DNA from: a virus
Length of the DNA stretch: 27,876 nt
Reading direction: 5' to 3' (one strand)
IMG/VR virus record: IMGVR_UViG_3300031251_000088
Location: 1 to 27,876 of that record
In this document: one piece after another, positions 6,146-27,822 of the stretch
How the letters are laid out: every line of letters begins with the position of its first letter
Position numbering within the stretch: position 1 is the stretch's first letter
The notes under the pieces: model-generated
Databases searched by the model: none
What the model was told of the DNA's origin: nothing
The model's input: only the letters and a program-made list of their open reading frames with translations
Made by a program: the position numbers and the translations under genes

Positions 6146-6153
6146 ATGTCAAA
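6146..6153 (-). promoter_or_regulatory. TTTGACAT leader motif, 11 nt before start 6134
   Basis: Minus-strand TTTGACAT in the gap 6135-6200, upstream of a gene without SD. One member of the recurring set in the late operon. Confidence 0.5.
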
Positions 6154-6200
6154 TTTCCCCGCCTTCGTCCGCCGCCGCCGAGCCTATGGCGGACAGGCCC

Positions 6201-6437
6201 TCACTCGAAGAGGTCGCGGCGATGCCGGGCTTTGCGCTCGCGCCACGAATCCCGCTGGATCCGCCAGGTGTAGTAGCCGGCCATGAAGCCGAAGACTGCG
6301 CCACCCAGGGCGAGAATTTGCGCGATGGCCGTGACGTGCGTGAGCAGCCAGCTGATCCATGAAAGGAACAGTGCCAGGAAACTTCCGAACCAGCCAAGAG
6401 AGGGATGCGCCTCGAGCGCGGCCTTGAGTGAGTTCAT
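6201..6437 (-). CDS. Two-TM holin candidate
   Basis: 78 aa with two membrane helices (about 17-33, GSFLALFLSWISWLL; about 38-58, TAIAQILALGGAVFGFMAGYYTW) and a strongly basic C-terminus (RIQRDSWRERKARHRR). Size, topology and charged tail fit class II holins, which make inner-membrane holes for lysis timing. Its ATG overlaps the previous stop by four bases. A second two-TM protein is encoded at 7541-7804, so one may be holin and the other antiholin. Confidence 0.6.
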   Translation of the reverse strand: MNSLKAALEAHPSLGWFGSFLALFLSWISWLLTHVTAIAQILALGGAVFGFMAGYYTWRIQRDSWRERKARHRRDLFE

Positions 6438-6850
6438 GGCGCGGGCCTCCCCATCTTGTGCCAGATATTCATCCGCACGAAATATACCAGGTGCTGGCGA
6501 TCGATGATGTATTGGCCAGCGATCGGGTCCTCCTTCGCTAAAGCTTCGGAGGGCGCGCGCACGAGACCGGCATCGGCCTCGAGCCGCGGCGTAAAGGCGG
6601 GGCCGTAGATGGCGATGAGCTGGTTGTAGCGATCGCGGAAGTGGGGCGTGACAAGGTAGCCGGTGGGCGTGGCGGCGATGATGCCGCTGTTTTGCTCATT
6701 AGCATCGAAGCTGGCCGCGGAGCTCGTTACCGGATCAGGGATCACCGTACCGCAGCTGCTCAGCAGCAGGCTGCCAAAGCCGGCTGCGATGAGGATGAGC
6801 GCAATCAAGGCCCATTCGGAATGGGCGGAATCTCTGCGGGCCCGGTACAT
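6434..6850 (-). CDS. Predicted small lipoprotein, 138 aa
   Basis: Basic N-terminus, then ALIALILIAAGFGSLLLSSCGT: signal peptide with lipobox LSSC, so probably lipid-anchored. The mature part has no family I know. Residues APSEALAKED are encoded by a copy of the window's hairpin repeat (6529-6554), an in-frame insertion that the protein tolerates. The start at 6850 gives the TGA-CG-ATG junction seen elsewhere in this operon; GTG at 6856 (GTGA overlap) is an equal alternative. In a lysis region a small lipoprotein could be an outer-membrane spanin; inference only. Confidence 0.62.
   Translation of the reverse strand: MYRARRDSAHSEWALIALILIAAGFGSLLLSSCGTVIPDPVTSSAASFDANEQNSGIIAATPTGYLVTPHFRDRYNQLIAIYGPAFTPRLEADAGLVRAPSEALAKEDPIAGQYIIDRQHLVYFVRMNIWHKMGRPAP
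6529..6554 (-). repeat. Hairpin repeat copy B, inside a gene
   Basis: CCTCC and GGAGG arms around TTCGCTAAAGCTTCG. Translated as APSEALAKED within the lipoprotein gene, the same frame as copy C. Confidence 0.65.
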
Positions 6851-6852
6851 CG

Positions 6853-7056
6853 TCACTCGGCAGCGTCTTTGCGGATTTTGTCCAAGTCGCCCGAGGCGAC
6901 ATCTTCAGCGGCCGCGTCGGAGACTTTGGCATCAGCCTGGCCGACGGCGGCGGCCTTGACGTCGGGCGCGTTCTTCGCGGTGAAGCGGACGTAGGCCAGC
7001 TTCAGCCCCTCGCCGAGGGCGCCGAAGAACGCAGTGATGGCGGACAGCACACCCAT
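6853..7056 (-). CDS. Small protein with membrane-helix N-terminus
   Basis: 67 aa. MGVLSAITAFFGALGEGLKLAYV could be one short membrane or amphipathic helix; the rest is charged and Ala-rich (ADAKVSDAAAEDVASGDLDKIRK). ATG 7056 follows the upstream stop as TGA-CC-ATG, which fixes the start. Length and layout would suit an inner-membrane spanin or a small holin partner, but there is no diagnostic motif. Confidence 0.55.
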   Translation of the reverse strand: MGVLSAITAFFGALGEGLKLAYVRFTAKNAPDVKAAAVGQADAKVSDAAAEDVASGDLDKIRKDAAE

Positions 7057-7058
7057 GG

Positions 7059-7544
7059 TCAGGGCGACGGATGCGCAGTCTTCCAAGTGGCGACGCCGTT
7101 CTTCAGCCCAGTGGAAAAGGCTGCGAGAATGATCTGGACGCCAGGATCCGTCGCGGTGGATACCTTCAGCCCGTAAGTGGCCTCGTATTGGGAGATCGCG
7201 ATGGAGAGACCGTTGGCGACGAAAGCGATGGCGTCAGGGCTGAGCGCGAGGGAGGCCTTGGCGTTGAGCGTATTCAGCGCGGCTGTGATACCCTCGGGCG
7301 TGAGGTTGCCGGAGCCCAGAAGCACCGGGATCGAGTCAGCCAGGATGTCGATCGCGGGCGCATAGGACGGATTCTTCTCGAGGACGAGCGGGACGGCGGC
7401 CTGAGCCATGGGGGTGACGAACTGGGCGATCGATTGGGCGGTCGGAACGGCGACGACGGGTTTCGAAGTGGCGGAGACGCAGCCCGTCAGAAGTGACGAG
7501 AGACAAGTGACGAGTGACAAGAACAGGAGGCTGAGCTTTTTCAT
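7059..7544 (-). CDS. Predicted lipoprotein, 161 aa
   Basis: MKK, hydrophobic LSLLFLSLVTCLSSL and the perfect lipobox LTGC at 19-22. The mature part is helical and Ala-rich (QSIAQFVTPMAQAAVPLVL, ITAALNTLNAKASLAL, IAFVANGLSIAISQYEATYGL). Probably membrane-anchored after lipidation. Function unknown; it lies between two holin candidates. Its stop precedes the next ATG by 2 nt, and its start lies within the previous gene's stop (ATGA). Confidence 0.68.
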   Translation of the reverse strand: MKKLSLLFLSLVTCLSSLLTGCVSATSKPVVAVPTAQSIAQFVTPMAQAAVPLVLEKNPSYAPAIDILADSIPVLLGSGNLTPEGITAALNTLNAKASLALSPDAIAFVANGLSIAISQYEATYGLKVSTATDPGVQIILAAFSTGLKNGVATWKTAHPSP

Positions 7545-7804
7545 GGTTTTGAGGGAGGGAAAGGAGCGATGGTGGCGGTGGTCTCCTGTTCCTCGGGCGG
7601 CACAGGGGCCTGCTTGAGATACAAGGCGGCGGAAACAACGGCGGAGATGAGCGTGAAGTGCCAGAGCTTCTCCCAGCCGGTGTCGAAGTTGAATTGATCC
7701 GGGGCGACGACCATGACGCAGATGGCATTGGCGCCACCGCCGACGACAGCGCCGATGAGACCGCGGATCCAGAGGCGCCAGTTGGTGATCGTCTTGGTGG
7801 CCAT
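7541..7804 (-). CDS. Two-TM holin-like protein
   Basis: 87 aa. Membrane segments at about 12-33 (WIRGLIGAVVGGGANAICVMVV) and 48-63 (WHFTLISAVVSAALYL); the tail is Pro/Glu/Thr-rich. ATG 7804 lacks an SD but lies 13 nt after ATTGACAC. It is first of the lysis-like cluster after the fibre gene, the usual place for a holin. Confidence 0.58.
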   Translation of the reverse strand: MATKTITNWRLWIRGLIGAVVGGGANAICVMVVAPDQFNFDTGWEKLWHFTLISAVVSAALYLKQAPVPPEEQETTATIAPFPPSKP

Positions 7805-7817
7805 TGGCGTGCGGGCG

Positions 7818-7825
7818 GTGTCAAT
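7818..7825 (-). promoter_or_regulatory. ATTGACAC leader motif, 13 nt before start 7804
   Basis: Member of the recurring leader set, in the 28-bp gap after the tail-fibre gene. Confidence 0.45.
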
Positions 7826-7832
7826 TCTCGGA

Positions 7833-10800
7833 TTACGAGTTGACCGCCTTGATGACGGCGAAACCGAGCACGAGCGTCTCCACCAGGGCACCGCCGCTAA
7901 AATTGTGGATCTGGATCGTGCAGGAGCCTGATCCGACCGCCACGACATCGAAGTGGTAGGAGTTCAGCGAGCCGCCTGAAACCATCCAGACGTGGACCAT
8001 GTCGGTTGCGGCGATCGAGGAATCGGTCAGGACGAAGCTGACCGCAGTATTGGCGGCGAGACTGGCGCCATTCGCTGTAATCTGGCCCGTCATCTTGTTT
8101 AGCGTAACACCGGTTGACTTGCTCGTCGCTTGGGTGATGGTGCCTCCCGCGCCTGGCGTATACCCAATCCCAAGCGTGCCAGAGCTTGATGTGATGCCGG
8201 CAGTCGTAGAAAACCCGGCACTATTGATTGTTGCAAAAAGCAGCGCGCCGGCACCCGAACTCTTGACGCCAGTAAAGGCAAAGGTGCCGTACGTGGACGA
8301 ATTCGGACCTAGCGAAAAAAGTCGAGCGGTCCCACCGCTGTCGGTATCAAGAACAAATATGTTTGGAGTCGTCAGCCCTGGATTTGATCCGTTTACCGTA
8401 GAATAAAAAGAAGTAGTTGAAGTAAAAATGCTTGCCGCGGGTGTAACAGATCCAATCGGAGTGTTCTCCAGCCCAGAAGCTGTAATGTTGCCAATGAAGC
8501 GGCCGGCCCAGTTAGTGCTGGCTCCCGTTGGAGCGTTCACAGTGATGCCGGAGGCCGTGGTCGTATTGGATACGGCGCGCTGCTGAATCAGCAGGCCATG
8601 AGTATTGGTGAGAGTTGCAGAAGCGCCACCGGAGGGAGGCCCATCGATCGCGAGTGTTGCATCGTCGGTCACAACAGAAGCGCCGACGAAGGAATCCGTT
8701 GGGGCGTTGATCACCACGTGCCGCTGGGTGGCGAGCGCGCCGGCGGCATGCTGCTTCGTCTGGTTGAGATTGATCTGGAAATCGATGGCCTCGGTCGCGG
8801 TGGTCATGCCAGAGTCGGCGGCGCCGGTGAAGAGGAACTGCGTTGCCACGCCGGCCGTGCGGGGGGCGGCCGTGGCGGTTGTGGCGCCCGTGGTTTGGAG
8901 AGCGAAGTTGTTGGTTGCTCCCGTGGGAGCGTTGAAGGTGGCCGCGAAGGCATTGGTTACCGCACCACCGAGCGCCTTGGTCGGCACATAGATCGCGTGG
9001 GCGTTGGTCAGCGTGGCGTTGGTGCCCCCAGAGATCGGGCCGTCTACCGAGAACGTGGCATCGTTTGTAACAACGGAGGCGCCGACGAAGGAATCGGTGC
9101 CGCTCAGCACGCTGACGTGGCGCTGCGTAGTGAGCGCGCCGGTGGCATGCTGTTTCGTCTGCGAGATGTCGATGAGGTAATCCACGGCTTCGCCCGACGC
9201 ACTCAGACCTGTATCTGCGCCGCCAGTGAAGACGTGCTGCGCTGCGGTGCCGCTCGTGCGGGCGGTAGGAGCGAAAGTATGGATGCCCGTCCATGTCGGC
9301 GCAATTGCCTGACTGAGCGCGGGAGCACCGTCGGAACGAATGGAGGTGGCGGCGCTGCCGTTGATGGCCGTCAGGCCGATTGTGGCTGTCGGATTGGCCA
9401 CACCGGAAACATTGGTCGACGTGACGTTGCCGAGCTCATCGACCGAGAACTTGCTGACGCCGCCGACCTGGAGGTCGATCAGCTTAGAGGCAGAGTTGCT
9501 GGCGGAATTGGTGACGTTCTGCTTGATGCCGGTAAAAGTGACGGCGCCGGAGTTCCACGTCTGCGTGATATCGATCGGGTGGGTATCGGCGCTAACCGTG
9601 CCGCCTGTGATCTGGACGGCATTGACGGCGTCCGCCGCGCCACCCACGCCGAGACGTGTGAACTGCGGCGTGGAGGCCGTGGTGAGGCCAGCGACGTCGG
9701 CCTGCGCGATGGCAAGCAGCGTCTTCGATTGGGCGACAGTAAGGGCGAGCGGGACTGCCGGGGAACCCGTGTTGTTGCCGATGAAGGAATTGGCGGCGAG
9801 GTTCGCCATCTTCGCCAGGGTGACGGTGCCGGCGGGAATTGTGGTCGTGATCGCGGTCGTGCCCGATCCGGTGGTGTCACCGGAAAGCGTGATCGACTGA
9901 TTGGCAGTGAGGTAGGTGTTGGTATCGATCGATAGCGTGCCGACGCCGCCGCCGGTCTTGATGAAGCCGTTGGTCGTGAGATTGGAGAGAGTCGCGATGT
10001 TCTGGCTCGGGTTGACCGTGATCGTGTTGGTCGTGCGTGTGAGGCCGGTCGAGAACGTGAGGGGGACCTCATAGGCGCTGGTCGCGGTATAGGCGGCAGT
10101 GCCGAGTGTGCCACCCGAGCCGACATTCAAAGTCGAGCCGTCCGTGCCGGCGAGCGTGAGCGTGGCATTGAACGTCAGGATTTTCGCCGCTGCACCGGTG
10201 ATGGTGTAGGTGCCTGTCGTGAATGTGTTGCCGTTGAGACTGGTGGCCGTGGCGACGCCAAGGGTCGGCGTCGTCAGGATCGGACTCACGAGCGTCTTGT
10301 TTGTGAGCGTCTGCGCTTTGCCGATCAAATCGAAGGTATCGCTGACGCCGGCCATGTCGGGGACGGTTAGGGTCGGGGCACCGATGGTCTGCGCGGCAGT
10401 CGCAATGGTCACGGTCTGCCCGGTGGCATCAGCGGGCAGCAGCTTGAGCGCGCCGGAGGTTTTGCCATTCACCTGGATGAAGCCGGTATTGGTCTTTCCG
10501 GCTGCGGTCGTGAGAGACGGAGTCGTGGCGTCAGCAATGGTCACGGCACCGCTCAGGGTATTGGCGCCGGTCGAGGTGATGAAGGGGCCCGTGCTGCCGG
10601 CGAACGTGTTGGATCCAGAGCCCGAAGCAGTGAAGCCGCCGGCCAGGACCGGGGTGTTGATCGTCGGGGATGTGCCAAAGACGTTTGCGCCGGTGCCAGT
10701 TTCATCTGTCAGCACGCCGGCCAACTGGGCAGACGTCGTCGCGGCGAACTGGGAAAGAGGATTCGACGTCAGCGCGTTTCCGCCGCCTGTCAGGGCAGTG

Positions 10801-11228
10801 AAAACGAGCGCAGTCTCGCCGGCGTTTACGCTTACCACTTTTAGCGCCTGACCGGTATAGGAGGCCGGGACATCGGTCAGCGCCGTGAAGGTCGTCGCCG
10901 GGCCAGCAGCCCACTTCATGCCCGTCGCTTGTGTGCTGTCTGCGGTGAGGACCTGGCCATTGGTACCGATGGCCAGGGTACCGAAGGTCGTAGAGGCAGT
11001 CGCGGGCGTGAGCGTGCCCTTGGCCGGCGTCCCGGTGTAGTTAACGATGCCGTTGATGGGACCGAAAACCGAGACCGCAGGGAAAAGGAGGGCGCCCGTT
11101 GTACTGTTGACCGTCACGCTGGCCTGCGTGACGACGGGCGTGGGCTGAGAAAAAGCCATCTGGGCCGCGAGGGCGAAGACGGCGAAGATCGCAGATCGGA
11201 GATGGGAGATCGGGACAGGCGATTTCAT
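7833..11228 (-). CDS. Tail fibre / receptor-binding protein with signal peptide
   Basis: 1131 aa, Thr/Ala/Gly/Ser-rich and almost all beta. The first 28 residues look like a Sec signal (MKSPVPISHLRSAIFAVFALAAQMAFSQ), unusual for a cytoplasmically assembled fibre. Middle: repeated beta strands such as GTSPTINTPVLAG and KTLVSPILTTPTLG, common in phage fibres. Residues about 650-780 and 783-910 are a tandem domain repeat (shared: QTKQHA-x-GAL, TQRHV, DSFVGASVV, DATL/F, GATN). The C-terminal about 100 residues (VTLNKMTGQITANGASLAA, then SGGALVETLVLGFAVIKAV) match a domain I know from the ends of phage tail proteins. ATG at 11228 follows the upstream stop as TGA-TC-ATG. Likely determines host range. 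Confidence 0.88.
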   Translation of the reverse strand: MKSPVPISHLRSAIFAVFALAAQMAFSQPTPVVTQASVTVNSTTGALLFPAVSVFGPINGIVNYTGTPAKGTLTPATASTTFGTLAIGTNGQVLTADSTQATGMKWAAGPATTFTALTDVPASYTGQALKVVSVNAGETALVFTALTGGGNALTSNPLSQFAATTSAQLAGVLTDETGTGANVFGTSPTINTPVLAGGFTASGSGSNTFAGSTGPFITSTGANTLSGAVTIADATTPSLTTAAGKTNTGFIQVNGKTSGALKLLPADATGQTVTIATAAQTIGAPTLTVPDMAGVSDTFDLIGKAQTLTNKTLVSPILTTPTLGVATATSLNGNTFTTGTYTITGAAAKILTFNATLTLAGTDGSTLNVGSGGTLGTAAYTATSAYEVPLTFSTGLTRTTNTITVNPSQNIATLSNLTTNGFIKTGGGVGTLSIDTNTYLTANQSITLSGDTTGSGTTAITTTIPAGTVTLAKMANLAANSFIGNNTGSPAVPLALTVAQSKTLLAIAQADVAGLTTASTPQFTRLGVGGAADAVNAVQITGGTVSADTHPIDITQTWNSGAVTFTGIKQNVTNSASNSASKLIDLQVGGVSKFSVDELGNVTSTNVSGVANPTATIGLTAINGSAATSIRSDGAPALSQAIAPTWTGIHTFAPTARTSGTAAQHVFTGGADTGLSASGEAVDYLIDISQTKQHATGALTTQRHVSVLSGTDSFVGASVVTNDATFSVDGPISGGTNATLTNAHAIYVPTKALGGAVTNAFAATFNAPTGATNNFALQTTGATTATAAPRTAGVATQFLFTGAADSGMTTATEAIDFQINLNQTKQHAAGALATQRHVVINAPTDSFVGASVVTDDATLAIDGPPSGGASATLTNTHGLLIQQRAVSNTTTASGITVNAPTGASTNWAGRFIGNITASGLENTPIGSVTPAASIFTSTTSFYSTVNGSNPGLTTPNIFVLDTDSGGTARLFSLGPNSSTYGTFAFTGVKSSGAGALLFATINSAGFSTTAGITSSSGTLGIGYTPGAGGTITQATSKSTGVTLNKMTGQITANGASLAANTAVSFVLTDSSIAATDMVHVWMVSGGSLNSYHFDVVAVGSGSCTIQIHNFSGGALVETLVLGFAVIKAVNS

Positions 11229-11230
11229 GA

Positions 11231-12046
11231 TCAGACGGGAAGGGTGAAGCCGGCGGGATCGTAGCCGCTGGTGAGTTGGGTGCCGGAGCCTGTGAGGAGC
11301 TCCTGGTGAAATTTGCTGGTTGTGGGATTCCACGGGGCCGGAACGCCCTCCTTCATCACGCCAACGAGTTCCCAGATGTAGCTGGCGTCATTGGTGCTGA
11401 GGATCAGCCAAGGAAGACTCTGCGAGCTCGCGCCCTTCAGGCGGAGCCGGTAATCGGCGCGGATGGAACCCGTGAAGAAGACCGAGATGATCGGGTTGCC
11501 GCTCTTGATCGTCGAGATGTCGAGGGCGGCGAGGGAATTGCCGCCGCTGGTCAGAGCTGTGATATCGGAGCGATTGAGAACGTAGTTCGGAATCACCCCC
11601 ACGGTCTGGCCGGCCACGCCGGACGGGGCGTCAGTGCGGTAGATGCAGGCGCCGAAGGTTTTGTTGGCCTGGGTGGCATCGTAGGCCAGATCCAGCTTGC
11701 ACGGCCCGCGCAGGAGATCAGGCGTGACGACGCGACCGCTGGGGAGCGTGGCTTGCGCGTAGTAAAAATAGTCACCCCAGCTGTCGGCGGTAGCAGTGTC
11801 AGCGGCGGCGATCGCGAGATCGACGATGCCGGAAAGCGGTGACGTCAGCGTGAAATTCGCCAGGACTTTGCTGACGATCGCGTAGGTGTCGGCAATGTAG
11901 GCATCGCGCTTGATGACGAACTTCAGCGCTGTGACGCCGGTCAGATTAATGGGCGTGCCGTCATCCTCGAGAAAGATGAGGCGCAGAGCGGCAGAGGTGC
12001 CTTTAAGAAGAAGGAGAAGCGGGCCCAGCCCGGCGGTGGAGCTCAC
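11231..12046 (-). CDS. Tail-tip/baseplate protein with BppU-like N-terminus
   Basis: 271 aa, GTG start. Residues about 18-100 (TSAALRLIFLEDDGTPINLTGV, ALKFVIKRD, SGIVDLAIAA, GDYFYYAQATLPSGRVVTP) follow the pattern of the Ig-like N-terminal domain of BppU-type baseplate upper proteins, which attach receptor-binding proteins to the tail tip. The rest is beta-rich without a known match. It ends 2 nt before the fibre gene, consistent with a fibre adaptor. No SD; the motif TTTGACAC lies 12 nt upstream of the GTG. Confidence 0.68.
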   Translation of the reverse strand: MSSTAGLGPLLLLLKGTSAALRLIFLEDDGTPINLTGVTALKFVIKRDAYIADTYAIVSKVLANFTLTSPLSGIVDLAIAAADTATADSWGDYFYYAQATLPSGRVVTPDLLRGPCKLDLAYDATQANKTFGACIYRTDAPSGVAGQTVGVIPNYVLNRSDITALTSGGNSLAALDISTIKSGNPIISVFFTGSIRADYRLRLKGASSQSLPWLILSTNDASYIWELVGVMKEGVPAPWNPTTSKFHQELLTGSGTQLTSGYDPAGFTLPV

Positions 12047-12058
12047 TCAGGGCCGAGG

Positions 12059-12066
12059 GTGTCAAA
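12059..12066 (-). promoter_or_regulatory. TTTGACAC leader motif, 12 nt before start 12046
   Basis: Member of the recurring set, in the 34-bp gap after the phosphoesterase gene. Confidence 0.5.
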
Positions 12067-12080
12067 CCCTGCTGCGCCGC

Positions 12081-17678: not shown

Positions 17679-17686
17679 ATGTCAAA
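17679..17686 (-). promoter_or_regulatory. TTTGACAT leader motif, 12 nt before start 17666
   Basis: Follows hairpin repeat D by 6 nt on the minus strand. Confidence 0.5.
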
Positions 17687-17692
17687 AACCGT

Positions 17693-17723
17693 GTCCTACT
17701 TCGCCCGTTGGGCTTCGAAGGAC
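17693..17723. repeat. Hairpin repeat copy D
   Basis: Ends GTCCT and AGGAC; inner stem CCC-GTT-GGG. Compared with copy A, both outer (GCCCT/AGGGC) and inner (CTC/GAG) stems differ by paired, compensatory changes. Confidence 0.75.
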
Positions 17724-17741
17724 AAAATGAATGAGGCCGCC

Positions 17742-18233
17742 TCATTCATTTTGCATCTGGGCAATTATCGTGACCACGAGGCGATCCATCCAGTGCTGGG
17801 CGGTCTGATCGCCATCCTCGTGGGGAGGCAGCACATCGTAGATCAGGATGCCCTTCACGACGCGCTGATCTGGCGATGGCGAAGGATCGTTACAGAACGC
17901 TAGAATTGCGGCTTTGGAGCACGGACCGATCCATTCGGCGATCATCCCGACGCGCGAGGCATGGTTGATGGCGGCGTTGGCTTCCGTGGCAAGGGAACCG
18001 ATGAGGATGGTGAGTTCGATCTGGCTGAGGCCGGTGCCCTGCGCCGCCTCATCCTCTGCGCCGCGCGCACATTCCAGGATGACCATCGGGAAGGTGCGAT
18101 TGGTGACCTGCTGGCGAAGTAGGATATTGGTGCCGTCTAGAGCGGAAGGAGAGACAGCGGAGATCCTGCTTTGAAGGTAGGATTGCAGCGAAGCTTCGAC
18201 TTTCTGGCGCAGGGCGTAGGGAGCGTTGGGCAT
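17742..18233 (-). CDS. Tail terminator / minor tail protein
   Basis: 163 aa. Opening YALRQKVEASLQSYLQSRI resembles the first helix of tail-terminator (gpU-like) proteins, followed by strands (FPMVILECARGAE, SQIELTILIG, GILIYDVLPP, RLVVTIIAQMQ) separated by a helix. These proteins cap the finished tail and join it to the head. It lies between the neck protein and the tube, the expected slot. No SD; TTTCGACAC lies 16 nt upstream and a hairpin repeat just before that. Confidence 0.65.
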   Translation of the reverse strand: MPNAPYALRQKVEASLQSYLQSRISAVSPSALDGTNILLRQQVTNRTFPMVILECARGAEDEAAQGTGLSQIELTILIGSLATEANAAINHASRVGMIAEWIGPCSKAAILAFCNDPSPSPDQRVVKGILIYDVLPPHEDGDQTAQHWMDRLVVTIIAQMQNE

Positions 18234-18249: not shown

Positions 18250-18257
18250 GTGTCGAA
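18250..18257 (-). promoter_or_regulatory. TTCGACAC leader motif, 16 nt before start 18233
   Basis: Variant with C for the central T; follows hairpin repeat E by 4 nt. Confidence 0.42.
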
Positions 18258-18261
18258 ATAC

Positions 18262-18312
18262 CCCTACTTCGCTCTGCGAGCTTCGAAGGGCTCGTCCTCA
18301 GCGAAGCTGAGG
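18262..18312. repeat. Hairpin repeat copy E plus second hairpin
   Basis: 18262-18291 is a family copy with inner stem CTC-TGC-GAG (loop changed, stem kept). Directly next to it, 18296-18312 is a perfect hairpin CCTCAGC-GAA-GCTGAGG. The compound element lies in the gap after the neck gene. Confidence 0.7.
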
Positions 18313-18316
18313 CGAG

Positions 18317-19039
18317 TCAGCGGGTGTCGAAGCCGGAATCCCGGGCATCCCGGTTGAGGATGTAGGCCGTCTCGCGGTTGAGGGCGTTGTCCGCGTAGCC
18401 GATGGCGTAGTCGAGCCGGCGAGTGAGCTCGTTGACGAGGCCATCGGGGACTTCGTTGTTGGAGACAGTGAGCTGGTAATTGAACATCTCCAGGATCAGC
18501 CGATGGGATCCGCGACTCGAGCCGTGGCGGGCAACCCAGGCTGGCGTGCCGGAGACGCCGAGGGCATCCGCGCCCGCGAGCCAGCCGGAGGCGAGCTTGC
18601 CGACGCGGCCCTCGAGGGCGACAACGAGGGCCTTCAGCTTGTTCTGGTCCACGTAATAGGGCTGCTTGCGGCCGCGGGTGAGCGGGCGCCCGGGCTGCTT
18701 GTATTTGATGAAGAGTTCGCGGTGCTTGTCGTTGACGTTGGGAGTGACCTCGCGCCGCTCGTGTTTCAGGGTGACCCCCGAAAAGACGGCCGCGAGATCC
18801 CGGATGATGGCGCTGTCGCCGCGGGCCTTGTCGGCGGAAGTGAGACCGCCGCCGTCGCCGCGCGGCGTACCGAGCTCGCCGATCGAATTGCCGGGGGGCG
18901 TGATGCCCATGGCACGCTTGACCACACCGCGCATGGCGCGGACGAAGCTATCGCGCAATGAGCGCTGCGACACCCCGGAGTAGCGGACGATCGAGCGCTG
19001 CAGATCCGTCAGGTCGGCGCGGAAGGTGGCGTTGACCAT
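18317..19039 (-). CDS. Neck / head-tail connector protein (HK97 gp10-like)
   Basis: 240 aa. N-terminus VNATFRADLTDLQRSIVRYSGVSQRSLRDSFVRAMRGVVKRA is typical of minor capsid or head-completion proteins of the HK97 gp10 type. A central basic region (PLTRGRKQPYYVDQNKLKALVVALEGRVGKLASGWLAG) follows. ATG 19039 is preferred over 19084, which would add residues that look antisense-like and would overlap the previous gene. Fits between the 111-aa head-completion gene and the tail terminator. Confidence 0.65.
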   Translation of the reverse strand: MVNATFRADLTDLQRSIVRYSGVSQRSLRDSFVRAMRGVVKRAMGITPPGNSIGELGTPRGDGGGLTSADKARGDSAIIRDLAAVFSGVTLKHERREVTPNVNDKHRELFIKYKQPGRPLTRGRKQPYYVDQNKLKALVVALEGRVGKLASGWLAGADALGVSGTPAWVARHGSSRGSHRLILEMFNYQLTVSNNEVPDGLVNELTRRLDYAIGYADNALNRETAYILNRDARDSGFDTR

Positions 19040-19398: not shown

Positions 19399-19406
19399 GT
19401 GTCGAA
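19399..19406 (-). promoter_or_regulatory. TTCGACAC leader motif, 12 nt before start 19386
   Basis: In the 111-bp gap downstream of the coat gene, after the hairpin at 19448-19475. Confidence 0.45.
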
Positions 19407-19497: not shown

Positions 19498-20790
19498 TCA
19501 GCCGAGGAGGATCGCCATGTGCTCGGGCTTGACGGCGAGCGTGCCCCAGCAGACGCCGATCTCGTAGAGGATCATGCGCTGGCCGGGCCAGACCACGAGC
19601 TCGAAGCTGAGGCCCGACAGCGGGTCGGTGATCGTCTCGCGGAGGATGGCGAGATCGCCTTCCTCGGGGCAGGCCGGCAGACGGGTGGCCAGCAGCATCG
19701 CGTTGCGGGACAGGCCCACATTCGCGGTGTAGTTGCCGCCGATCGTCATGGCCTGGGCGGAAGCCGGCAGCGCCTGCATCAGGCCGGGGGCGGCGATCGT
19801 GATGGTGCCGGGGGCGGCGACGCCCACGGTGACCACATACTTGTTCGTATCACCCGCGAAGGTGATGACGTCACCCGCGACCACCGTGCCGGAGCCGGTG
19901 ATGATCGGGATGGAGGTCGTGCCCTTGGCGAAGCCGGCAGCGCTCGAGGTGTAGAGCGTGCCCGTGCCCTTCGTGATGGATTGGACCTGGGCGGCCTCGC
20001 GGAACTTGAAGCCGTTCACGTCGAGGATCATGCCCTGGCGGGTCATGTCGCCGGTGAGGGCGATATTGGCGTTCAACGGATTGTTGAGCAGGGTGCGCAG
20101 GGCGGCGCCGCCGGTCGTGTTGATGACGATGCTGCGGTCCGCGGCGGGCGCACCGTTGTCATCGAGAATCTTCTTGAGCTGGGCGGACTCCGCCAGGTTG
20201 GTGGCGAAGGGCGTGGTGCCGGCGGTGCCGTAGGCGCGGCTCGAGCCGAGCTGCGCGGCGACCGCCAGGTCGACCTCGATTTCGTTCACCGCGGCGCGCA
20301 GCGCCTGGGCAATGTTGAATTGGCGGACGTTGAGATAGCCCGGGCCCGTGTTGATCGACTTCTGTTCCTCACCCGTCCAGTTGAACGGGAAGGCACGCTG
20401 TTTCGTGATCGTCAACGACTTGTTGCCCGGCGACTGGTCGGCCGTGGTCGGGAAGGACATCGCGGGCGCGATATTGCGCCCCGACGTGTTCGCCGTGGTC
20501 TGCAGGACGCGGAGCGTCTGATTGAGGGCCACACGGTCAGCCGAGGAATCGCGGGTGACCGACGGAATGAAACCCACCAGCTCGCGCGACACGACATCGA
20601 GCGCAGCATAGCAGTCGGGGATGAGGCTCGTCAGCGTGTTGAGGCCACAGGCGAAGACCGACTTCACGCCGAACAGCGCGAGGAAATTGGCGAAGACCAC
20701 CGCGATGGCGGCGATCAGGACCGCCGCGAGGCGGAAAGACGCAACGCTCAGGGCTGCGACGAGGCGGAAGGGGAGGCTGAGGAATTTCAT
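19498..20790 (-). CDS. Major capsid protein (P22-coat/HK97 fold) with hydrophobic leader
   Basis: 430 aa. From about residue 51 (NTLTSLIPDCYAALDVVSRELVGFIPSVTRD) the sequence looks like P22-type coat proteins, which start at this point. The C-terminal pattern NVGLSRNAMLLATRLPACPEEGD, GLSFELVV and VCWGTLAVKPEHMAILLG also fits that group. An insertion-like Thr/Gly domain lies at about 270-350 (SGTVVAGDVITFAGDTNKYVV). Residues 1-50 are unexpected: three basic residues and a 22-residue membrane-like helix (LAAVLIAAIAVVFANFLALFGV). The frame has no internal ATG before residue 100; a GTG at about residue 42 is possible. No SD and no TTTGACAY at this gap. Confidence 0.82.
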   Translation of the reverse strand: MKFLSLPFRLVAALSVASFRLAAVLIAAIAVVFANFLALFGVKSVFACGLNTLTSLIPDCYAALDVVSRELVGFIPSVTRDSSADRVALNQTLRVLQTTANTSGRNIAPAMSFPTTADQSPGNKSLTITKQRAFPFNWTGEEQKSINTGPGYLNVRQFNIAQALRAAVNEIEVDLAVAAQLGSSRAYGTAGTTPFATNLAESAQLKKILDDNGAPAADRSIVINTTGGAALRTLLNNPLNANIALTGDMTRQGMILDVNGFKFREAAQVQSITKGTGTLYTSSAAGFAKGTTSIPIITGSGTVVAGDVITFAGDTNKYVVTVGVAAPGTITIAAPGLMQALPASAQAMTIGGNYTANVGLSRNAMLLATRLPACPEEGDLAILRETITDPLSGLSFELVVWPGQRMILYEIGVCWGTLAVKPEHMAILLG

Positions 20791-21539: not shown

Positions 21540-21547
21540 GTGTCAAA
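21540..21547 (-). promoter_or_regulatory. TTTGACAC leader motif, 16 nt before start 21523
   Basis: 15 nt downstream of the terminator hairpin, in the gap between protease and scaffold. Confidence 0.5.
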
Positions 21548-21556
21548 AGTCGGCAC

Positions 21557-21586: not shown

Positions 21587-21606
21587 GAGCACTGCCTGGT
21601 ACGAAA

Positions 21607-22509
21607 TCAGCCGAAGTTGATCGGAGCGGAGAGCAGCGCGCCGACGGCGCTTTGCACTTCAGCGATCACATCGGAAACACTGTCGACCACCTTGTCGGCG
21701 AGACCGAGATCAACGGCCTGGGCGCCATCGAACCACTGGCCCTCCATGGTGGAATCGGCGACGTTGGCGCGCTTGGAGCGCACCGCGGCAAGAAATTGAT
21801 CGTTGGTGCGACCGACGGTCTCGTCCAAGAAGGCACGGGCGTCATCATCGAGCGGATTGCCAGTGACGCCGATCGCCTTGAATTTGCCGCGCTTGAAGAG
21901 CTCGAGCTTGACGCCCATCTGCGCGAGATACTCGGAGTAATCGTAGAGTGCGATGTAGGTGCCAATGCTGCCGACCTGCGCGCTGGCGGTCGTGTAGAAA
22001 AACGTGGCCTGGCTCGCCAGCCAGTAGGCGGCGCTGCAGGCCTGCAAGTCAGTCACGGCCACCACGAGCTTCGTCGCGGCGAGGGCAGCGATCTGGCCGC
22101 CGAGCTCGGGGATCCCGATGACCATGCCGCCGGGGGAGTCGATTTTGAGGACCACAGCGACGACATCGTCGCTCGCAGCAAGTTCGGAAAGAGCGGCCTG
22201 CACGCGATCCGTACTCGCGCAGCCGTAGAACCAGGCGGTGATGGGATCCAAACCCTTCATCAATGCGCCACTGATCTCGACGACGGCCACCCCGTTCTCG
22301 ACGGTGAAGATGGGAACCTCCCATGGGTAGCAGGGCTCGTCCTGATCCTCATCATCGGCCGGCATGTCGGCGCGGGTCGCGATCGGCGTGCGGACCGGCT
22401 TGCCCGCGGCGATGTCGCGGATCAATCCGACGAAGCAGTCGGAGCGGAGGAAAAGCGGCGAGGCCAGAAGCTTGGCCAGGAAGGCGTTGGAGGAAAGGGC
22501 GGTTTTCAT
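21607..22509 (-). CDS. S49-family (SppA-like) prohead protease
   Basis: 300 aa. The family core is clear: ALMKGLDPITAW, LKIDSPGGMV at 121-130, the nucleophile-bearing ACSAAYWLAS with S159, GSIGTYIALYDYSEYL at 180-195 and a Lys-rich segment KRGKFKAIG near 206-213 that should supply the catalytic lysine. Phage S49 enzymes cut scaffold and coat leaders during head maturation. ATG 22509 is preferred over TTG 22521. It follows the portal stop by 8 nt. Because S49 relatives digest membrane signal peptides, the hydrophobic leader of the coat is a plausible substrate. Confidence 0.9.
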   Translation of the reverse strand: MKTALSSNAFLAKLLASPLFLRSDCFVGLIRDIAAGKPVRTPIATRADMPADDEDQDEPCYPWEVPIFTVENGVAVVEISGALMKGLDPITAWFYGCASTDRVQAALSELAASDDVVAVVLKIDSPGGMVIGIPELGGQIAALAATKLVVAVTDLQACSAAYWLASQATFFYTTASAQVGSIGTYIALYDYSEYLAQMGVKLELFKRGKFKAIGVTGNPLDDDARAFLDETVGRTNDQFLAAVRSKRANVADSTMEGQWFDGAQAVDLGLADKVVDSVSDVIAEVQSAVGALLSAPINFG

Positions 22510-22517
22510 GAAGAAAA

Positions 22518-24188
22518 TCAATCACCGGCCGCGCCGCCACCCCGCTCATCTGCGCCGGCCTGGGTATCGGCGTCGTCGTTGGCATTCGTCGGATCATCCG
22601 TGCTGGCACCGACGGCGGGCGCGCCCGTCGACATGCCACTGCGCTGGTAGAACCGATTGAGAACTTCCGCAGGATCGAGGCCGCGTTCCACCGCGCCGGC
22701 GGCGATTTTCTGGTATTCGTCCATCCACTCGGCGAGTTCGTGGTCCGAGTCGAGACCCTGCATGCCGAAGAAGCGACGGAAAGTGAGGGCGCCGCTGCGC
22801 AGCTGGTCGAGGTAGAGCTTGCCGTCGCGGCCGTAGTCGGCCGTCCAACGCGCGGGAGCGATCCAGTCGTGGCGCCACCACATCGGATCGGCGCACTTGC
22901 GCAGGCGACCGGCCTTCATGTCCTTCGCGGTGAACCAGATCAACTGGCGGCCGAGAACGGCGTCGATCAGGTGCTGCTGCTCCTGCTCGACGAAGGACTG
23001 CGCATCGGCGAGGACGATCCGGGAATTCGCGCCTCCGAGGGCGGCGATGTTCCACAGGATCTCGGGCGAGAGATCCACGCCCCAGGACATGTCGCGGGCG
23101 AGGTGCTCGAAAAACGCCATGGAGTTGGGGTGCGGCCGGCTGTCGAGCAGCTGCTTGATCTCCTGGCCGGCGGCCAGGTCGGGGATCTCGCCACCGGCAG
23201 CCGCGAAAAGTTTCTCGGTGCGGACCGTATTTCCGCTCACATCGGTCACGACGGAGGTGCCCGCCGGCGCGCGGCCGCGGAGGCTGGGGGCAGTGCTCGC
23301 CCCGACCTGTCGGCCAATGTAATAGCCGATGCGGGAGGAGGCCTTGAGGCCACTCTTCAACGCGGCATCGAGCTCGGAAATATCGAGCAGGTTGTTGACG
23401 GCGTGCGTCAGGATGGACGTCGCGCGGTGCGCACCCGGGCTCGAGTATTTGCCGAAGTAGATGAAATTCTCGACGCCGATGTCGACCTGGCTGCCGTCAT
23501 CGTTGGAAATGCTGAGGCCGTAGGGATTGGCATGGCCGCAGATGCGATAGGAAACGGCGGCGTTGTATTGGTCGACGCGCACGCCATCGAAGAGCGAGAG
23601 CTCATCGCCCGGCACCGTCTGGCCATTGGAAATCTGGTGCGACTCGTAAAACGCCATGCGGCCGAGGCCGGCCGCGGACTCCGCGAGCACCATGCCCATG
23701 TCGCCATCGCGGTACCGGCAGTGCAGATTCATCGCCTGCGCCGAGTAGAAATTGTAGCGGCGACCGACATCGTAGATCGCGGCGGTGCCGACGCGGTTTT
23801 CGAAATTCTGGAGGGCGAGCTTGTTCCACTCCTTGTCGGAGCTCATGAAACGTGGCATCAGGCCGGTGCCGGCCACCATGCGCGGGATGCCATCGAGCAC
23901 GCGGCGGGTGAAGCCGACATTGGCATAGAGGTAGCGCACCCGGCGCAGCGTCTCGACTCGGGTGCGCATCGTGATCTCCTTGCGCGTATCGAGCTGGGGA
24001 AAGTAAACGTAGGCGCGATCCGGGGAGCGACTGGCCGACTGGTAGCCGTTGGAACCAACGGCGCCGTAGGGCCAACCGGTGAGCAGCGAGGAATCGGCCA
24101 TCGGTGTGACCATGGGCTCGTCGGCAAGCGGCGCCGGTGAGCGGCTGGCGCGCGCGGCGCGCGGGGCGGTGGATTTTGCGCGGGCCAT
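22518..24188 (-). CDS. Portal protein (lambda gpB family)
   Basis: 556 aa. Family-like segments include TMRTRVETLRRVRYLYANVGFTRRVLDGIPRMVAGTGLMPRF, the DGDMGMVLA strand, and the helical stretch HLARDMSWGVDLSPEILWNI, then RIVLADAQSFVEQEQQ. The C-terminal 40 residues are disordered and acidic. A dodecameric ring at one vertex would act as DNA conduit and assembly nucleus. Starts as TGA-CC-ATG after the 104-aa gene. Length is normal for the family. Confidence 0.9.
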   Translation of the reverse strand: MARAKSTAPRAARASRSPAPLADEPMVTPMADSSLLTGWPYGAVGSNGYQSASRSPDRAYVYFPQLDTRKEITMRTRVETLRRVRYLYANVGFTRRVLDGIPRMVAGTGLMPRFMSSDKEWNKLALQNFENRVGTAAIYDVGRRYNFYSAQAMNLHCRYRDGDMGMVLAESAAGLGRMAFYESHQISNGQTVPGDELSLFDGVRVDQYNAAVSYRICGHANPYGLSISNDDGSQVDIGVENFIYFGKYSSPGAHRATSILTHAVNNLLDISELDAALKSGLKASSRIGYYIGRQVGASTAPSLRGRAPAGTSVVTDVSGNTVRTEKLFAAAGGEIPDLAAGQEIKQLLDSRPHPNSMAFFEHLARDMSWGVDLSPEILWNIAALGGANSRIVLADAQSFVEQEQQHLIDAVLGRQLIWFTAKDMKAGRLRKCADPMWWRHDWIAPARWTADYGRDGKLYLDQLRSGALTFRRFFGMQGLDSDHELAEWMDEYQKIAAGAVERGLDPAEVLNRFYQRSGMSTGAPAVGASTDDPTNANDDADTQAGADERGGGAAGD

Positions 24189-24190
24189 GG

Positions 24191-24505
24191 TCAGGTAGCG
24201 TGGAAGCGCGAAGAGAAGTCGATGACCGTCGCCAGGCTGCCGGGAGTGGGAATGGTCGGCGCGGTCGGATTGAGGGTGGCGTCCAGCTCGAGCAGCACCT
24301 GCTCGACAGCGGAAAGATAGGCGAGCGCCTCAAACGTGATCTGGCCCTGGACGGTGGCGCCCTCGGCAGAATGACCGGTCAGAGTGACGGCCTCGGCACC
24401 GGTGGACATGATGGCTGCCGCGAGGGCCTTCAGGCCGTCCATGTTGTTGGCGTAAGTGCGCCGGAGATACTGCATCACCGCCGCGATCCGGGCTTCGTCG
24501 TCCAT
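24191..24505 (-). CDS. Small head protein in gpW position
   Basis: 104 aa. N-terminal half helical (DDEARIAAVMQYLRRTYANNMDGLKALAAAI), then GAEAVTLTGHSAEGATVQGQIT and a helix. Between terminase and portal, lambda-like phages encode a head-completion protein (gpW, about 68 aa); this is longer and similarity is not clear. ATG 24505 has TTTGACAC 12 nt upstream and no SD. Tight coupling to the portal suggests a head role. Confidence 0.62.
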   Translation of the reverse strand: MDDEARIAAVMQYLRRTYANNMDGLKALAAAIMSTGAEAVTLTGHSAEGATVQGQITFEALAYLSAVEQVLLELDATLNPTAPTIPTPGSLATVIDFSSRFHAT

Positions 24506-24517
24506 GGACGGGCGGAG

Positions 24518-24525
24518 GTGTCAAA
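24518..24525 (-). promoter_or_regulatory. TTTGACAC leader motif, 12 nt before start 24505
   Basis: 19 nt downstream of the hairpin at 24545-24573. A second copy of the octamer at 24648-24655 overlaps the stop of the 61-aa gene and has no start codon after it. Confidence 0.5.
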
Positions 24526-24534
24526 CTTCCGGCA

Positions 24535-24573
24535 GAAAAGCAGACGGCCCGGCGGGACTCGCCCACCGGGCCG
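24535..24573 (-). terminator. Hairpin, probable terminator after the 61-aa gene
   Basis: Long GC stem (CGGCCCGG, then GGG, against CCC, then CCGGGCCG, with one mismatch) at 24545-24573, followed on the minus strand by TCTGCTTTTCTG. It lies in the 144-bp gap between the 61-aa and 104-aa genes; the stretch 24574-24647 holds nothing else I can identify. Confidence 0.62.
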
Positions 24574-24649
24574 CTGACCGTATGCCAAGCATAACCGAAC
24601 TACTACAACCCGCGCAGTTACCAGCTACGCGAACGAAGGAACGGGCGTG

Positions 24650-24835
24650 TCAAACTTTCGGGACGGCAGGAGATGACGCCGGCGGAGTCAAAGCCGCGGG
24701 AGTTTCGGCCGCCGTCGGCACCGGCACTTCGATGATGGCGAGGCCTTCGATTTCGTAGAGCGCCTTCAGAAGGCCGGCGCGTTTGGCGCTGGCGACGATG
24801 CGGTCGAAGTCTTTGCGGGGGGCGGGATTTTCCAT
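24650..24835 (-). CDS. Small protein after large terminase, 61 aa
   Basis: A short amphipathic helix pair (KDFDRIVASAKRAGLLKALYEIEGL) and a Pro/Ala-rich tail. Start ATG 24835 lies 4 nt after the terminase stop. Size suits a small head-joining protein, but the sequence is not diagnostic. Confidence 0.55.
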   Translation of the reverse strand: MENPAPRKDFDRIVASAKRAGLLKALYEIEGLAIIEVPVPTAAETPAALTPPASSPAVPKV

Positions 24836-24839
24836 AGAG

Positions 24840-26729
24840 TCAGGCCGCCGCTGGCGCGGCTGCAGGTTTGGCGGCGAGTGCCTCCTCGGTGGCGATCTCC
24901 TCGAGGAGATCGTTGATGATGACGTGAGCCAGGACGGTGAGCATCTTCAGGGCGTCGCCCCAGTCGTTGGTCCAGCGCTTTTCCCAGAGGAGCTTCTCAA
25001 AACCGGAGGGCAGGATCTTCGGCACCATCTGCTCGCCCATCAGCTCGTGCAGGACTTCGCGGTCGATGTCCTTGGGAAGCCAGATCCTCGTCATGCGGGC
25101 CTGCCCCTTCTTGATCCGGTCGAAGTCGCGGATGCGATCGAGATAGAGCGCCTGCTTGAATTTGTCGTCGTTGAAGTGGTAGCAGTTGAATTCCTGGCCG
25201 TCGTGGATCGTCAGGCTGGGAGCGACGAGCTGACCGCGCATCTGATTCAGATTGCCGCGGCCCTTGCATGGGAGGAATCGATAGTTGGAACGGATGCAAA
25301 ATTTCCGGACCTCATCGGTTTTGAAACCCTCGTCGATCAAGCCGGCGATCACGTTCCAATCTTTGCCGGCACCGTCGCGCACGGGCTGGTCGGCCTCGAT
25401 AGTCAGGTCGTCGAAGGCGAGGCACTGGCCCCAGTCGACGACGTAGAGATCGCCGAGTCGATCGAAGGCAGCCTTCATCCATTTCTTCACGCCGCCCTGC
25501 ACGTCGGAAGCCATACCAAGATAGATGGCGGCCTGAGGCATCGTGCCGCGAGCGTAGTCGCCGCAGAGTTTCAGGAGATCATCCTGCTGCACCTCGACGC
25601 GGCGGCCCTTGTGCTCGAGGCCGAAGCGCCCGGACTGGACGGCTTTCTGGCGGGCGGGATTTTTGATGGCGTCGATCAGGTCGAGCGCGATGCGGCCGAA
25701 GTTGGCGTCAGCGAAGAGGGAAAATAGGTCGGAGGACTCGAGGCTAAGATGGCCGGGTTCGGGGTTGAGGTTCGTTGCTCGCCATTCGCAGCGCAGGGCC
25801 ATGTCACGTTTGTGGCGATCGTAGATTTTCCCGTCGGAACAAGCGGGCGTCCCGGATCGAACGCACGAGTAGTAGGTCTCGGTGGCCACGCGTTTCTTGT
25901 CGTAGTCGCCGGAAGGAAGTTTGCAGTGGTCGAAGATGAGGCGCTCCTGCACCAGCACCTGGAAGTGACCGCAGTGCGGGCACGGCAGGTGGCATTTGTG
26001 CATCGTGCCGCGGCGAAATTCGGTGGTGGTGATGTCGGTCTCCTCGTTGGGTTCGGAGAGCACGATGAGCTTGCCACCGGGGACTGTCTTGAAGCGGGAC
26101 TTCATTTCCTCCACGAGGTGCTTGTGGCCGCCAGCGACGCGCGGGATCTTGTCGGCCTCGTCGACGATGCCGACGGAGATCACCTTGTTGGCCGCGGCGC
26201 CGATCGAACCGCCGCCGATGAACATGATGAACATGTCGCGGAGATAGAAGTTGAGCGCGCTCATGTCGTCCTCGTTCTCGGAGATCGCCTGGGCGGTGAG
26301 CGGACAGCGCTCGAGCGTGGGCTTCAGACGGATGCGGGCGAGCCGCTTGGCCTCGTTGACGGAGTCGATCGCGTAGAGGACGTTTCCAGGATCGTGAGCC
26401 ACCCGGTAGCGCAGGTAGTTCATGATCGCCTCGGTGAAGCCGCCTTGGGAATTTTTCTTGATCGTAAACTGGCGCCACTGCGGGTCGGTCAGCGCCTCCT
26501 GCAGAAAGCGCGTGTGCGGGGCGATGCGGGAATCGTAGGGCCCGGGGTTGGCGGGCGACGCGATGGCGTCGAGCACGATGTGCTTCTCAGCCCAGCGCCA
26601 GACGTTCTCCGGTGGCAGCTCGGCGAAGACGCGCTCGAGGAGGCCGGGCAGGATGGATCCCGGCACCCAGGCCGGCGAACCGGCGGAGCCGGGCGCCGCG
26701 TCAAGCTGGAGCTGTGACAGGTGATACAT
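24840..26729 (-). CDS. terL: Large terminase subunit (lambda gpA family)
   Basis: 629 aa DNA-packaging motor. The ATPase P-loop is the lambda-type deviant form: K-K-N-S-Q-G-G-F-T-E at 91-100, with Lys at the front and an aromatic at the usual Lys position (lambda: KSARVGYSK). Walker B is VISVGIVDEAD with D190/E191. A zinc-type cluster CHLPCPHC (246-253) is characteristic of this family. The nuclease region begins near YLGMASDVQ. ATG 26729 is chosen because GGAGG lies 6 nt upstream; it overlaps the small-terminase gene by 29 bp. The lambda-like family suggests cos-type packaging. Confidence 0.95.
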   Translation of the reverse strand: MYHLSQLQLDAAPGSAGSPAWVPGSILPGLLERVFAELPPENVWRWAEKHIVLDAIASPANPGPYDSRIAPHTRFLQEALTDPQWRQFTIKKNSQGGFTEAIMNYLRYRVAHDPGNVLYAIDSVNEAKRLARIRLKPTLERCPLTAQAISENEDDMSALNFYLRDMFIMFIGGGSIGAAANKVISVGIVDEADKIPRVAGGHKHLVEEMKSRFKTVPGGKLIVLSEPNEETDITTTEFRRGTMHKCHLPCPHCGHFQVLVQERLIFDHCKLPSGDYDKKRVATETYYSCVRSGTPACSDGKIYDRHKRDMALRCEWRATNLNPEPGHLSLESSDLFSLFADANFGRIALDLIDAIKNPARQKAVQSGRFGLEHKGRRVEVQQDDLLKLCGDYARGTMPQAAIYLGMASDVQGGVKKWMKAAFDRLGDLYVVDWGQCLAFDDLTIEADQPVRDGAGKDWNVIAGLIDEGFKTDEVRKFCIRSNYRFLPCKGRGNLNQMRGQLVAPSLTIHDGQEFNCYHFNDDKFKQALYLDRIRDFDRIKKGQARMTRIWLPKDIDREVLHELMGEQMVPKILPSGFEKLLWEKRWTNDWGDALKMLTVLAHVIINDLLEEIATEEALAAKPAAAPAAA

Positions 26730-27606
26730 CGGCGGCCTCCTTCCAGTGCTTGGCGCCGCGGAGGAGCTGCTCCTCGCGTGTGCGCTCGAGCGCGACGGCG
26801 GAGCGCACGAGCTCGAGATGCGCGGGCGAGAGATCACCGGCGAGGGCAGAGCAGACGTTGTCGACCATGCGGGCCCGCATCATCTTCTGCGACATGAGGA
26901 GCGTGGACCAGTCTTCGCGCACCTCCTTCAGCGGGACCAGGTCACCGCGCTTCTTCTGCATTTCGAAGATGCCGACCTCGGCCTTGCGGAGGAGATCGAG
27001 GCCTTTCTCCACGCTGCGCTGCAGGCTCGAGATCAGACCCTCATCGAGGCCGGTGAGCATGGCGGTGCGCAGGCGCTCCTGCGTGGACCAGACAGTTTTT
27101 CGGAGCTCCTCCACGCTCTCCTCGAGACCGCCTGGCGTGGAGCTGAAGGTGTAGGGCGCTGCAGTCGGCGCGGCTTGTTCTAACTTTATTCCAGTTTGCT
27201 CTAAACTAGGATGAGACGGCGCTGAGCGCGCGGTCGGTTGTCCGTAGTGAAGCAGCCCCTGCGACGGCCGCTGCTTAAGGATGCCGCGGGCCTGCATTCG
27301 ATTCCACCATGCGAGAAGCGCCGGCGGATCATCGAGCGGCGGCAGCTCGCGCGGCTGCGAATCTTTCCCGATGGAGATCCAGCGCTTCAACGTGCGGACG
27401 GCGACGCCGATTTTCCCGGCGTAGTGCTCGAGCTCGTGCGTGTAGGCCGCGCGCGCCCGCGGCGGATTCGCGAGGACTGAAGCCGATAGCAGATGAGCGA
27501 GCTCCGCGGACTCGGCGGTCGGTAGCCGCTCGCCCGCCATGAAGCGCCGCAGCAGCACGACCTCGCGCGAGTGCGCCCGAGCGTACTCTGTTTGCTCTTC
27601 GCTCAC
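26701..27606 (-). CDS. Small terminase / DNA-recognition subunit candidate
   Basis: 301 aa, first identified late gene. An HTH-like segment (HELEHYAGKIGVAVRTLKRWISIGKDS, residues about 60-86) would bind the packaging site. A Pro-rich linker follows, then a long helical part (SSLQRSVEKGLDLLRKAEVGIFEMQKKRG) that may form the oligomer and contact TerL. GTG 27606 is chosen: GGAGG is 7 nt upstream, while ATG 27612 touches the SD. The frame stays open to the window edge, but that part looks non-coding. Longer than lambda Nu1 (181 aa). Confidence 0.75.
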   Translation of the reverse strand: MSEEQTEYARAHSREVVLLRRFMAGERLPTAESAELAHLLSASVLANPPRARAAYTHELEHYAGKIGVAVRTLKRWISIGKDSQPRELPPLDDPPALLAWWNRMQARGILKQRPSQGLLHYGQPTARSAPSHPSLEQTGIKLEQAAPTAAPYTFSSTPGGLEESVEELRKTVWSTQERLRTAMLTGLDEGLISSLQRSVEKGLDLLRKAEVGIFEMQKKRGDLVPLKEVREDWSTLLMSQKMMRARMVDNVCSALAGDLSPAHLELVRSAVALERTREEQLLRGAKHWKEAADVSPVTAPA

Positions 27607-27704
27607 CCGCATCCCTCCGGCGCAGTTTTCATAATCGTTTACCTTATCCCACCGGTGCAAAAGTTGGCCATCGGGGCTTCGTGCGGATCCGGAGATCCGG
27701 CCAG

Positions 27705-27803
27705 TCAACTCACCGCCAGGAGCGAAGTGCGCTCGAGCGCACTTCGCGAAGATCCACCGCGCGCGGCGCGCCTGGTGCGATCGGGCTGGTAAAAACGGTC
27801 CAT
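27705..27803 (-). CDS. Possible 32-aa leader peptide
   Basis: ATG 27803 lies 11 nt after TTTGACAT and has GAGGG close by. Product MDRFYQPDRTRRAARG, then Ser/Arg/Leu-rich; very basic. It contains the 26-bp palindrome. No family; may be a leader peptide or chance. Confidence 0.25.
   Translation of the reverse strand: MDRFYQPDRTRRAARGGSSRSALERTSLLAVS
27722..27747. promoter_or_regulatory. 26-bp perfect palindrome upstream of terminase genes
   Basis: Half-site GCGAAGTGCGCTC repeated as its reverse complement, with no mismatch and no spacer. It lies about 115 bp before the small-terminase start. Candidate operator, cos-linked site or mRNA hairpin. The rest of 27613-27876 holds no convincing gene; it also contains GATCCGGA repeated next to it near 27690. 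Confidence 0.55.
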
Positions 27804-27814
27804 ACCCTCTGGCG

Positions 27815-27822
27815 ATGTCAAA
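27815..27822 (-). promoter_or_regulatory. TTTGACAT leader motif, 11 nt before ATG 27803
   Basis: Ninth member of the set; it precedes a possible very small gene rather than a known one. Confidence 0.35.

Follow-up and report, generated by a model that had tools for sequence, protein, structure and literature searches.

The window, by which we mean the whole stretch of DNA analysed here, is a 27.9-kb virus record (27,876 nucleotides) with a G+C content of 63%. Its plus strand encodes an integrase, and the minus strand holds a long late operon whose genes include a lambda-type portal, a GpA terminase, an S49 head protease and a P22-coat-5-like major head protein. The N-termini read from the ATG are common to orthologues. 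The major head protein has about 50 extra hydrophobic N-terminal residues (window 20640-20790) ahead of the conserved coat domain, and a signal-like hydrophobic stretch is also present at the beginning of the coat gene of G167:C51 (L179). Beside the integrase gene, positions 1302-1335 resemble the 3' end of a tRNA gene and are likely the attachment site; ARAGORN found no complete tRNA there. A short motif recurs in the gaps of the late operon:

5820 to 27803, minus strand: late operon with terminase, portal, head protease, coat, tail and accessory genes, holding the motif sites
27815 to 27822, minus strand: motif TTTGACAT at the head of the late operon, 11 nt before ATG 27803
24647 to 24654, minus strand: orphan copy TTTGACAC, lying across the stop codon of gene 24650-24835
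24518 to 24525, minus strand: motif TTTGACAC, 12 nt before ATG 24505 of a small gene preceding the portal gene
21540 to 21547, minus strand: motif TTTGACAC, 16 nt before ATG 21523, with a C|A step between bases 12 and 13 after the motif (N12/N13)
19399 to 19406, minus strand: variant TTCGACAC, 12 nt before ATG 19386, with the hairpin that follows the coat gene upstream
18250 to 18257, minus strand: variant TTCGACAC, 16 nt before ATG 18233
17679 to 17686, minus strand: motif TTTGACAT, 12 nt before ATG 17666
12059 to 12066, minus strand: motif TTTGACAC, 12 nt before GTG 12046
7818 to 7825, minus strand: variant ATTGACAC, 13 nt before ATG 7804
6146 to 6153, minus strand: motif TTTGACAT, 11 nt before ATG 6134

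The original prediction had listed these copies and placed eight of them 11-16 nt before the start, in every late gap over about 25 bp except that of the coat gene. All copies were found again, save that the one given as 24648 begins at 24647, and the spacing applies to all nine copies followed by a start, including the ninth at 27815. Late starts behind gaps of more than 25 bp are those at 6134, 7804, 12046, 17666, 18233, 19386, 20790, 21523 and 24505; eight of these nine have the motif or a one-base variant 11-16 nt ahead, the exception being 20790 (coat gene), and none of the starts with smaller gaps has it. The exact word TTTGACAY occurs seven times on the coding (minus) strand and not once on the plus strand, and 400 dinucleotide shuffles gave a mean of 0.44 and a maximum of 3, none reaching seven. 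TTYGACAY with an ATG 10-16 nt later was observed seven times, with a shuffle mean of 0.13 and a maximum of 2, and the observation is confirmed. When one mismatch is allowed anywhere, the total of 20 is at chance level (19.7). Thus the signal consists of the exact core, the strand and the position. The two TTCGACAC copies (18250, 19399) are weak variants, because the second T of TTGACA is rarely altered across phages. As for the extra copies said to lack a start, those at 7680 and 18324 lie within genes, apparently by chance, and the one at 24647 reads TT-TGA-CAC on the stop codon; no start is near it, yet it has a C|G step at N13.

A search with the coat protein yielded 80 loci in viruses and 30 in genomes; an Opitutaceae MAG (72% identity) and the isolate IMCC26134 were among the best genome matches. 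Terminase and portal scans for relatives found little; the terminases are too divergent for a profile-alignment scan. In a subset of the coat-protein loci the motif stands ahead of starts on the coding strand, and no fewer than 12 related phages and prophages carry it, most of them from Opitutaceae and Verrucomicrobiaceae; several of the phage records are fragments. Loci from named Proteobacteria have at most one site each. In the hosts the motif was near-absent from starts (0 of 147 in IMCC26134, 2 of 193 in a Verrucomicrobiaceae host), and a host translation signal was rejected on the basis of these two chromosomes. The word followed by an ATG 10-15 nt later occurs six times in the 4 Mb of IMCC26134 (CP011265), three of them within its prophage at about 3.96-3.98 Mb. 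In 200 genomes of the IMCC26134 host family the full pattern was close to the chance level. Contigs with same-strand pairs point to prophages, among them a new one, G167:C51, with sites at -18, -21, -19 and -19. Among 68 genomes of the other host family, close same-strand clusters marked a known prophage and a contig of a Verrucomicrobiaceae genome, G259:C116 (L206-L207). The latter prophage was found by the motif alone, with six sites at -19 or -21; two coat-protein queries did not match it, and its terminase and portal are only about 24% identical.

The pooled phage genes allow the site to be described more closely. Of 309 genes, 30 have TTGAC beginning at -19 and 53 have it anywhere from -24 to -17, whereas not one has it from -16 to -8; the genes were called by codon use alone and their start codons by a simple caller. 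At -22 to -18, TTGACA was found 43 times (1.1 expected) and TTGACT 13 times (0.2 expected), other one-base variants being rare. Relative to the predicted start, the consensus [T/A]TTGAC[A/T][C/T] spans -20 to -13, so that TTGAC begins at -19. In the aligned sites it is followed by about seven positions of 83-92% G/C (a G/C-rich stretch at about -12 to -7) and then by featureless sequence up to the start region, where G is preferred at -2 and a pyrimidine-purine pair occupies -1 and +1. The motif is nearly confined to late genes, with sites ahead of terminase, portal-side, head and tail genes; in near-complete phages the early regions have almost no copies.

Is this a signal for the ribosome? 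Close to the original prediction, one could propose that a phage factor on UUUGACAC in late mRNAs recruits ribosomes 12 nt downstream without an SD. The spacing to the start is tight, the motif never occurs at overlapping genes across phages, and the claim that genes with a good SD lack the motif and vice versa holds in the window as well as across phages, where an SD-like 4-mer precedes 1 of 64 motif genes and 35 of 331 other genes. A positional analogue exists in the Start-Associated Sequence (SAS) of Cluster K mycobacteriophages, a 13-bp repeat (GGGATAGGAGCCC) with an SD core, 3-7 nt from the start of non-structural genes (PMC3203893). Both are short asymmetric repeats in one orientation upstream of many phage starts and absent from the host chromosome. 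Here, however, TTGAC lies at -19, an SD is nearly lacking and the genes are structural. Moreover, the G/C block makes the start region more structured, not less, and would reduce its accessibility; host genes do not use the motif; and TTGAC also lies 26-60 nt from the start in 19 called genes, including the coat gene of some relatives. The motif is retained ahead of the coat gene in IMCC26134, L069 and L043, and ahead of one head gene in four phages, with leaders that are longer and A/C-rich. The spacing has a sharp lower bound and a long upper tail (N20 to N53), which speaks for a start point rather than a ribosome contact, and we regard a translation element as improbable.

Features of the start region are expected to track the start codon if the codon is what matters, and the motif if it is the motif that fixes a 5' end. 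A pyrimidine-purine step at N12/N13 was found in 28 of the 40 sites whose start codon lies beyond N13, where 7.6 were expected from motif-less genes at matched offsets (p 3e-12, an optimistic value since related sites are not independent, for a test framed after the G at -2 had been noticed). The neighbouring steps N11/N12 and N13/N14 are of this type in 10%. With leaders of at least 8 nt the step is present in 12 of 14 sites, among them the coat gene and the head gene, with leaders of at least 16 nt past base 12. The step is thus anchored to the motif and not to the start codon, which also argues against the translation element. A pyrimidine-purine step is the usual look of a transcription start in bacterial DNA, and here it probably marks one. 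In the main class +1 would then coincide with the first base of the start codon, A or G, and these mRNAs would be leaderless.

The favoured interpretation, to which we assign a probability of roughly 0.55, is a set of dispersed late promoters, unusual in their architecture, which have the motif as their core and give rise to leaderless or short-leader mRNAs. A phage-encoded or phage-recruited factor would redirect RNA polymerase to the step, and at every copy, in an operon gap, a new late transcription unit would begin. Most commonly the first transcribed base would be the start codon's own A or G; other arrangements would have a leader of 1 to about 40 nt ahead of it. The motif-anchored step and the coat and head genes that keep the motif with longer leaders count for late promoters. 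So does the G/C block, in which C prevails in most phages but G in L069 and G259; this strand-symmetric, DNA-like property points to double-stranded DNA. The phage-only distribution (the 200 and 68 host-family genomes are near chance, prophages apart) counts in the same direction.

Conservation among orthologues adds to this. The motif is retained near the start in 21 of 24 orthologue pairs at 40-60% protein identity and in 16 of 36 below 40%, the comparison rate for genes in general being 17% and sites from related phages not being independent. Eighteen pairs have the motif at -19; their flanks share about 30% identity, and the sixth base, which was no requirement of the motif search, is 100% identical. 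Such a conserved footprint amid diverged flanks again favours late promoters. The small gene before the portal gene has the motif in 8 of 8 phages listed, and the copy at 24518 is retained in the orthologues of G167, G052, IMCC26134 and G014; the site at 12059 is common to the orthologues in G014 and G001:C71.

The presence of the motif at the head of the late operon also counts for late promoters. In the window, ATG 27803 opens a 32-aa ORF (27705-27803) upstream of the probable terminase small subunit, and a copy is present at the operon head in eight other phages, mostly at the TerS start codon; re-reading of the terminase small-subunit gene gave a GTG start about 12-14 nt past the motif in several phages. 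In G002, G014, G167 and G052 a conserved block AAGGAATCTTTTT (AAGGAATCTCTTC in G052) lies upstream of this gene, about 90-100 nt before the motif, a position that suggests a cos site. The location of some sites after hairpins counts weakly for late promoters: a hairpin and a T-run lie just upstream of site 24518, and site 21540 directly follows the terminator-like CCGCGGTCCTTCGGGACCGCGGCTTTTTT. Terminator-like hairpins occur in 12 of 23 wide gaps with the motif and in 20 of 52 without it, which is no clear enrichment, and terminators as such were rejected as the explanation of the sites. Related hairpin repeats CCTTCGAAGC...GCGAAGTAGG were also seen in the window gaps 17690-17750 and 18260-18320, immediately upstream of the motif.

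The nearest rival of the late promoters is RNA processing, in which an endonuclease would read UUGAC[A/U] in a long late transcript and cut at the pyrimidine-purine step about 12 nt downstream, again yielding mRNAs with a short leader or none. The step, whose distance is fixed, could equally be a cleavage site, which counts against late promoters, and the sites lie in operon gaps, as do the RNase III sites in the late genes of T7. Yet a block that is C-rich or G-rich depending on the phage would be odd for a single-stranded RNA site. The motif is not enclosed by a hairpin, stems being no commoner than with the upstream arms swapped, and no candidate nuclease was found. We consider processing unlikely, the least so of the alternatives. 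The original prediction, a non-SD translation-initiation or mRNA-processing element, therefore holds in that the element is real, start-linked and independent of SD; both of its proposed functions are disfavoured by the TTGAC copies 26-60 nt from starts, the structured start region, the C- or G-rich block and the motif-anchored step, with processing at that step keeping some probability.

The late promoters face difficulties of their own. TTGACA and TTGACT resemble the -35 box of Sigma-70, but no -10 box follows at 16-18 bp and the predicted start is 13 nt downstream of the element, not about 30. A -35 box with a -10 inside the coding region, or a -10 upstream, was rejected because the sites show no such composition, in agreement with the earlier statement that TTGACA so near the ATG is not the -35 of that gene. 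Composition around the aligned sites revealed neither a -35 nor a -10 box around the predicted start, which counts against late promoters. Polymerase normally melts DNA where the G/C-rich stretch lies, and this is a main difficulty. Wide-gap late genes without the motif, some even after hairpins, count against them as well. The late promoter of T4 is a single 8-bp A/T-rich element (TATAAATA), a -10 box read by gp55. It shares with the present motif the single 8-bp element, the late-gene specificity and the dispersal before late genes; the present element, in contrast, spans -20 to -13 and is followed by a G/C-rich stretch, and a search of six phage records for sigma region 2 found no homologue.

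Sigma region-4-like matches were sub-threshold only, one being in an HTH protein beside a ParB-like gene. This divergent HTH protein lies next to the ParB-like protein at L171:4080-4598, L153:7357-8118, L200:2276-2971 and window 1-513; the pair is present in the near-complete motif-bearing phages except G040, and one HTH member is weakly sigma-region-4-like. The HTH protein may serve as a lead for the reader of the motif, on the basis of this sub-threshold match. As the reader itself it was set aside: the AlphaFold model is too poor (pLDDT 53), no PDB relative was found, and it was not found in G040. The ParB-like protein was rejected too: it is strong in near-complete motif phages, but motif-negative ones also have weaker homologues.

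In sequence and orientation the closest known system is the stoperators of Cluster A mycobacteriophages. Their stoperator reads CTTGACA..CACC along transcription and also covers early genes and promoters. By analogy, a phage repressor on one-directional sites could block elongation through the late operon in lysogens. As in L5 and RedRock, a TTGACA core runs along transcription, G/C-rich bases follow and the sites lie in short gaps; they are asymmetric, in one orientation, intergenic, present in several copies and absent from hosts. In RedRock, several stoperator sites with no more than one mismatch are 23-30 nt ahead of a start and point the same way as it does, and orientation dependence of stoperators is known (PMC9283540). 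However, stoperators are fixed 13-bp sites at early and late genes with loose spacing and a dedicated repressor, whereas here the motif is almost limited to late genes, early regions of near-complete phages being nearly free of it, and the spacing is far tighter with a mode of 12 nt. A tblastn search for homologues of the L5 gp71/Bxb1 gp69 repressor matched the control only, though a non-homologous repressor could take its place, and the pyrimidine-purine step would be left unexplained. We rate this as the least probable of the three alternatives.

The evidence as a whole suggests that the motif marks where the late messages of these phages begin, without the usual promoter boxes and often leaderless. 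A more tentative proposal, falling just short of an even chance, is that it defines a new class of late promoter without -35 and -10 boxes, with TTGAC at -19 to -15 and a G/C stretch, read by a putative initiation factor, so that many late mRNAs of Verrucomicrobia phages would have their first base at the start codon or only a few bases away. In the literature on gene expression in Verrucomicrobia and their phages nothing was found; the field is almost undescribed. A signal this precise, confined to phages and to late genes, yields base-level predictions of about 80 transcription starts, for example at the A of the ATG at 3963002 on the minus strand of IMCC26134. If they are true, there is a promoter type without the two classical boxes, and many late genes are translated from leaderless mRNA. 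Searches for the motif can likewise reveal such prophages independently of protein homology, as with G259:C116. In L152-L153 (G004:C158), several late-gene leaders consist of tandem pyrimidine-rich repeats, e.g. CTCTGCTCTCTGCTCTC and TTCTGACTTCTGACTTCTGAC.
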